Source: an uncultured Flavobacteriales bacterium (GTDB taxonomy: Bacteria > Bacteroidota > Bacteroidia > Flavobacteriales_D > Crocinitomicaceae). Taken from it: a stretch of DNA of 64,000 nt. Below the pieces are notes generated by a model. It made no database searches. It was not told the origin of the DNA and was given only the letters and a program-made list of their open reading frames with translations. The position numbers and the translations under genes were made by a program. Shown piece by piece: positions 6,731 to 8,451 of this stretch. Each line of letters begins with the position of its first letter. Position 1 is the first letter of the stretch. The DNA is taken from positions 1 to 64,000 of the forward strand of contig CAIOSO010000033.1 in NCBI GenBank assembly GCA_903860985.1, read 5' to 3'.

Positions 6731-8451
6731 TCAGTATTCGATGTCCAAATTGAACAGGTTTTTCAAGGTATGCAGATTCGGGTTCTTCCGAGCAAGCGCA
6801 TTAAACTTATCTTTCCCTGTCAAAAACTTCGTTTCTTTTTCTGGTTCATTGCTCATGGATAATTGAATGTCCACGTGAAAGTTTTGTAAACTTTTTCGCA
6901 TGAATTCAATAAATCCCACCAACTCCGCATGGATATAATCCATCTGAACTTGATTGTCAACCACGATTCCCAAAACTTCTTCACTGATCAACACTGGATC
7001 GCGTTTGATTAAGGCATTATAGAAGGTCTCTAATCCATTTTCTTTAACGACATACGCATACTGTTTCCAGTACATTTTAACATGTTCAATGCTAAATCCC
7101 TCCCTCGGTTGGTCCTCTAAATTTCCTTGTTGCTGGGACTCCTTAATTTTCTCAATGGAATCTTTGATGGAAATATGTTTCGTGGAGATAACGCCTTGTG
7201 GACTGGTGAGGACCTTGTTTTCTACGTTTTCAACAACGGGTTTGCTTGCAACGACAGCTGGTTTGTTGACAGGTGCTGAAGCGTTTGATTTTCGTAATGT
7301 TTGGGTTGGAAAAGGCAGAATAACAACGCTATCCGTCAGTCCTTTTTTTTTTCAGACTCTTGTTTTAATGAACAGAGTTGCATGAGTGCTACTTCAATCA
7401 ACAAACGTTGATTTTTGGAGGATTTATAATCGACATCTGTTTTACTTAGAATCGTTAAGGCTCTCATGATGCGTGTTGCTTCAATTTCCTTCGACTGTTC
7501 GACAAATCGTTGTCGTATCGTTTCTGGAACTTCCAATAAATTGGATGTTCGCGCATCCTTGCACACCAATAAATTGCGCAGGTGTTCCGCTAGTCCAACA
7601 ACAAAGTTTTGTCCATCGAATCCTTTTTCAAATACGTCATTCAAGATCAATAAGGACACTGAAATGTCTTCTTTCTCCGCCGCATCCATTACTTTGAAGT
7701 AATATTCGTAATCGAGGATGTTTAGGTTGTCTAATACGTCCTTGTAGGTTAATGTTGTTCCCGCAAAGGTGACAATTTGATCAAAAATGGATAAAGCGTC
7801 TCTTAATGCGCCATCTGCTTTCATCGCAATTTGATGCAAGGCTTCAGGGTCCGCAGAAACACCTTCCTTCGTCGCTATTTGAGCCAAATGATCAGCGATG
7901 TCCTTTACGCGAATTCTGCTAAAATCAAAGATTTGACAGCGTGAAAGGATGGTAGGAATGATTTTATGTTTTTCCGTCGTTGCCAAAATGAAAATGGCAT
8001 GCTTCGGTGGCTCCTCTAATGTTTTCAAAAATGCGTTAAATGCACTATTTGACAACATGTGAACCTCATCGATGATGTATATTTTGTGGGTACCTATTTG
8101 CGGTGCAATGCGCACTTGATCAATTAGGTTTCGGATGTCATCAACGGAGTTGTTCGATGCCGCATCTAATTCATATATGTTTAATGAATTTCCCGTGTGA
8201 AAGGATAAACATGAATCACATTGATCACAGGCCTCTATTTGCTCCGTAGGATGGAAACAATTAATGGTCTTCGCTAATATTCGGGCAGTAGTTGTTTTTC
8301 CCACACCACGTGAACCACAGAATAAAAAAGCTTGTGCTAGGTGTTCACTTTTAATGGCATTCTTGAGCGTGTTCGTAATCGTATGCTGTCCAACAACCGT
8401 GTCAAAGGTTTGTGGACGATATTTGCGGGCAGAAACGACAAAATCACTCAT
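6731..8451 (-). CDS. dnaX: DNA polymerase III subunit gamma/tau, predicted frameshift-joined product (573 aa) across the A10 tract at 7343-7352; the 0-frame product ends at 7336 (371 aa)
   Basis: The N-terminal ORF is the classical DnaX clamp-loader ATPase (SRGVGKTTTARILAKTINC, CDQCDSC zinc module, LKTLEEPPKHAIFILATTE). After TCTGAAAAAAAAAAGGACTGA, the -1 frame is open through 7075 and continues as the 114-aa ORF MYWKQYAYVV...NLFNLDIEY, resembling the Bacteroidota tau C-terminus. Confidence 0.85.
7343..7352 (-). promoter_or_regulatory. Candidate slippery site: A10 homopolymer in dnaX containing an in-frame A AAA AAG heptamer
   Basis: Minus-strand sequence GAG TCT GAA AAA AAA AAG GAC TGA; the -1 frame reads GAA AAA AAA AAA GGA CTG ACG with no stop until 6731. 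Confidence 0.75.

Follow-up and report, generated by a model that had tools for sequence, protein, structure and literature searches.

A conserved A10 tract in dnaX of Bacteroidota probably programs transcriptional slippage yielding short and long DnaX proteins

The window analysed here, 64,000 nt of contig CAIOSO010000033.1 (assembly GCA_903860985.1) from an uncultured Flavobacteriales bacterium of the family Crocinitomicaceae, carries on its reverse strand a dnaX gene divided between two reading frames. The 0 frame (7336–8451; 371 codons) encodes a gamma-like protein with the AAA+ clamp-loader ATPase, lid and domain III of DnaX (Pfam DNA_pol3_delta2, DNAX_ATPase_lid and DNA_pol3_gamma3), and ends in the codons GAG TCT GAA AAA AAA AAG GAC TGA, where a tract of exactly ten A's (7343–7352) is closely followed by the TGA stop that closes the short form (7336–7338). 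The −1 frame continues past the tract through a linker and the tau C-terminal domain (6731–7342). One added A joins the frames into an unbroken 573-aa product ending at 6731, and removal of one A gives a 373-aa product. The NCBIfam profile PRK14971 was matched by the N-terminal part over positions 1–369 (with a further match to TIGR02397) and by the −1 frame part over positions 433–613 of 614 (E = 1.3 × 10−20); because both parts match one profile, the two frames are two ends of one known protein, the tau C-terminal extension being continuous with the N-terminal part. As read from the sequence, the window dnaX is thus most likely a two-product gene, with gamma-like and tau-like proteins encoded in overlapping frames that meet at the A10 tract. 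The original prediction had described such a gene, and its start, end and lengths (371 and 573 aa, 6731 and 8451) were recovered on re-reading, as were its attribution of both products to a single gene split by a homopolymer and its observation that the polarity is opposite to that of E. coli dnaX, the short form lying in the 0 frame.

Homopolymers are prone to sequencing error and the window's genome is a fragmented assembly of 191 contigs, so we considered whether the split could be a sequencing or assembly error, a strain-specific lesion or a phase-variable tract in an otherwise single-frame dnaX. Among 30 dnaX loci of the same genus (the window locus counted in), all 30 had G-A10 (A11 in one) and then a TAA or TGA stop at one shared codon position, which is the outcome of the comparison with orthologues that the original prediction had proposed as a check. 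In a wider sampling of the family (150 genomes, 24 genera), the dnaX 0 frame stopped at about codon 372–400 in nearly all, and the same tract was present in a single-contig family genome (G098, locus L068) and in genomes of named isolates. In one relative (L052), the run in this context is A11 and the frame is fused over 575 aa, so that a single natural base difference separates the two states. This conservation, extending to other genera, rules out an assembly error or lesion in dnaX, upholds the original view that the split is no sequencing error and leaves the error, lesion or phase-variation reading with a negligible probability.

The tract is also held at the nucleotide level. Outside the tract, the longest A runs in the tract-bearing dnaX genes (342 kb) were two of A9, and this near absence of long A runs elsewhere in the same genes indicates that the dnaX tract is not a product of chance; the window's own genome (2.4 Mb) has A10 or longer at 10 distinct places. 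Within the genus, 25 lysine or glutamate codon columns never change their amino acid; of these, the tract columns 367–369 alone have A in the third position in 30 of 30 loci, from which it follows that the run itself is maintained. A homopolymer of at least 8–9 A or T under such nucleotide-level selection is a feature of programmed transcriptional slippage.

To place the window gene in a broader setting, we read 250 dnaX loci across the phylum (many from metagenome assemblies, and a few representing one genome fetched twice) and classed each by whether zero, one added or one removed A yields the long product. A usable tract of A9–A13 lay just past domain III in 196 of the 250, with A10 in 154, A9 in 22, A11 in 17, A12 in two and A13 in one. 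The short form was encoded, with tau reached by adding an A, in 113 of these 196 loci, tau itself was encoded in 81, and tau required removal of an A in two (L104 and L255, both A10, where one A fewer or two more would be needed, opposite to the other short-form genes). Both states occur among isolates, as in Aquimarina mytili (fused, A10) and Aquimarina sp. RZ0 (split, A10), and the encoded state changed at least 20 times on a DnaX tree (FastTree, ATPase part), a count that depends on a topology with many weak forks. The base after the tract was G, T or C, and the tract occurred in all three codon phases. In 179 of the 196 loci, neither non-tau frame stayed open for more than 8 codons, where the same linkers would predict 44 such loci; with one gene per 75%-identity cluster the figure was 50 of 62 against 11.5 expected, the 8-codon limit having been picked post hoc, after the data had been looked at. 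Several tract-less dnaX genes of the phylum, including that of Bacteroides, form one continuous frame. By these sequence comparisons, the tract, usually with close stops in the other two frames, is retained in most sampled Bacteroidota. The direction of the shift is also not conserved among orthologues (no change, an added A or a removed A, the last in two loci only), a property used as a criterion of slippage by Antonov et al. 2013 (PMC3711429).

Folding predicts an RNA hairpin immediately upstream of the window tract (ACUCUGUU-CAUUAA-AAC-A-AGAGU; 7356–7378, reverse strand), ending 3 nt before the run and of low stability in the window species (about −6.7 kcal/mol over 40 nt). In both genus and family, hairpins with a 3′ arm ending 0–4 nt before the run were more stable than in synonymous-codon nulls, and only at that tract-abutting position; over the 62 clusters of the wider set the excess gave a Wilcoxon P of 5 × 10−4. 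Covariation in the family supported a six-pair register, in which one position showed six pair types among 63 sequences, with a score reached by no shuffle under a control that leaves some relatedness. One fixed hairpin for the whole family was considered and rejected: the genus register fits the wider family worse than a shifted register, and RNAalifold retained four pairs only. A different, near-perfect hairpin adjoins the A10 tract in Flavobacteriaceae-type loci, and synonymous-null folding found no hairpin at the tract in several families, Saprospiraceae and Dysgonomonadaceae among them, so the hairpin is not a general requirement. Slippage by RNA polymerase has been described as stimulated by a nascent stem-loop beside the slip site (Penno 2015, as reported in PMC5009743), and the placement directly 5′ of the run in this genus and family, though not in several other families, is the one expected of stem-loop-stimulated slippage.

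Whether the ribosome or the RNA polymerase shifts frame had been left undecided in the original prediction, which emphasized the heptamer A_AAA_AAG. The window does carry this heptamer in the right phase, as expected if the two forms arose by programmed −1 ribosomal frameshifting in the style of E. coli dnaX but starting from a 0 frame that encodes the short form. Of the 115 short-form loci, 113 would require a −1 shift, and a published review derives reversed dnaX genes from ribosomal frameshifting, with E. coli-like signals in one Chlorobium (PMC5009743). Against this, the varying next base and codon phase show that A_AAA_AAG is not the conserved object: AAG is replaced where the next base is T or C, the tract shifts phase among relatives, and the third-position A of GAA 367 is fixed too, though it lies upstream of, and outside, the heptamer. 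The 81 loci that encode tau, and the two that need the opposite shift, also sit poorly with a −1 ribosomal device. The stimulating structure in −1 ribosomal frameshifting is usually downstream, and in the 30 same-genus loci we found no excess of structure in a 70-nt segment beginning 5 or 10 nt past the tract (mean z 0.0), the place where an E. coli-type stem-loop would be expected. Moreover, Bacteroidota ribosomes make little use of Shine–Dalgarno pairing, which stimulates the shift in E. coli dnaX. Finally, close stops are found in both non-tau frames, which favours RNA polymerase slippage because slippage enters both, whereas a −1 ribosomal shift enters one only and would never meet the other stop. 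Together, the upstream hairpin, the lack of downstream structure in the genus, the two-frame stops and the frame switching favour transcriptional slippage over −1 ribosomal frameshifting, which we consider unlikely as the main mechanism; the A10 tract nonetheless contains ribosomal slippery heptamers, and ribosomal slippage may contribute.

A second alternative is that each frame is translated into a polypeptide of its own, by translational coupling or internal initiation, so that the two are never joined. It could draw on an ATG in the tau frame at 7075, which opens a 114-aa ORF, and on stop overlaps in a branch of the family that lacks the tract (below). However, no stop interrupts the tau frame across the tract and its linker lies upstream of the ATG at 7075, in relatives the protein is encoded without a break in a single frame, and coupling would have no need of a tract conserved at the nucleotide level; we therefore regard separate translation as very improbable.

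We thus return to transcriptional slippage, to which we assign a probability of roughly 0.8: programmed slippage at the A10 tract, aided by a hairpin, that would yield both DnaX forms and leave the encoded frame nearly neutral. The sequences directly show the tract, its conserved stops, the switches of frame and, as a statistical excess, the hairpins; that slippage occurs, how extensive it is and what each of the two DnaX proteins does we infer from them. RNA polymerase would slip while copying the A10 tract, helped by a nascent hairpin formed directly behind the RNA–DNA hybrid. Transcripts with 10 (or 13) A's would then be translated into the 371-aa gamma-like clamp-loader subunit, and those with 11 (or 8 or 14) into the 573-aa tau-like subunit, whose C-terminal part would be expected to bind the polymerase and helicase, while transcripts with 9 or 12 A's would end a few codons later and give a gamma-like product too. 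Because slippage would supply all three frames, the encoded frame would hardly matter and could drift between short and long states in evolution, with selection acting on the tract and the nearby stops.

Two groups of dnaX genes and one further gene depart from the tract. In one branch of the window's family (genera g5, g9, g12, g21 and g23; loci L035, L039, L042, L050, L051, L054, L057 and L152–L160), dnaX is split at the same place, at about codons 355–380, with no tract of A8 or longer. The motif ATCNTAR occurs at the 0-frame stop in 13 of these 16 genes, and stop–start overlaps were seen in three (ATGA in L155, GTGA in L158 and TAATG in L051); a common slippery heptamer and a consistent structure were looked for in the 16 genes, and neither was found. 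In a Bacteroidales lineage, six dnaX genes without an A tract, at loci L296 (L258), L297 (L244), L307 (L280), L299, L300 and L302, have an in-frame UAG at codons 367–372, the gamma/tau boundary, beyond which tau continues in the same frame to 568–621 codons. The UAG is directly followed by a conserved AUNGCNAGR and, in most of the six, by a predicted hairpin. Pyrrolysine at the UAG was considered and discarded, as the six genomes had no PylS above the cut-off, and TAG served as the ordinary stop of other genes in the three neighbourhoods checked; the boundary UAG is therefore a reasonable candidate for a programmed readthrough site that would make both DnaX forms. A single further Bacteroidales gene, L298 (L247), seen in one genome only, has no A tract and a long frame in +1 (open over codons 366–632) after TGC TAA A, at dnaX codons 366–384.

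Considered across the phylum, these patterns raise the possibility, to which we give about an even chance, that the production of two DnaX proteins is ancient and actively maintained in much of Bacteroidota, with the output alone conserved: mostly through A10 slippage with a drifting frame, often primed by a hairpin, through UAG readthrough in one Bacteroidales lineage and through some other replacement in the branch of the window's family. A 2012 review (PMC3290774) stated that, outside the enterobacteria and Thermus, most bacteria show no signature of dnaX frameshifting and may not produce gamma; by contrast, the pattern described here suggests that a dedicated device for both forms is maintained in much of a major phylum, even where the gene looks like an ordinary single ORF. 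The purpose of gamma would thereby become testable, both by comparison and with tract-locking mutants in cultivable Bacteroidota. Annotation is affected as well, since ORF calling on its own yields a truncated DnaX, and misses tau, wherever the genome encodes the short form.

The reversed dnaX layout is already known. The original prediction was aware of no case in Bacteroidota; the layout itself had been published by Antonov et al. in 2013 (NAR gkt274, PMC3711429), whose article gives 17 genes in 12 genera, nine of them with 10 A's, names three Chlorobi and proposes transcriptional realignment for the nine A10 genes. The window gene has the same arrangement, with a 0-frame short form ending right after a poly-A run and a −1 shift at that run for tau. 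The layout was repeated as rare, and worded as ribosomal frameshifting, in a 2016 review by Atkins (PMC5009743). In contrast to the earlier set of 17 genes, our comparison covers 196 loci phylum-wide, with frame-neutral switching, stops in both wrong frames and, in several families, an abutting upstream hairpin. The dnaX of Thermus thermophilus, for which A9 transcriptional slippage was described (Larsen 2000, as cited in PMC1088944 and PMC5009743), likewise has a poly-A run inside the gene, close stops in both other frames and two products, but encodes tau and slips to gamma, whereas the window encodes the short form. E. coli dnaX shares with the window two DnaX products and the A_AAA_AAG motif; unlike in the window, its encoded frame is tau and the shift produces gamma, at a site flanked by an upstream Shine–Dalgarno-like element and a downstream stem-loop, the latter a structure with no counterpart in excess in the window's genus. 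An IS630-family element of Roseiflexus (Penno 2015, as summarized in PMC5009743 and PMC6211511) also has a nascent hairpin directly upstream of its slippage run, but its motif is of a mixed T5C5 type and the gene encodes a transposase, where the present case has A10 in a replication gene. Relative to these published accounts, the breadth of the device, the switching of the encoded frame, the excess of stops in two frames and the abutting dnaX hairpin appear to be new.
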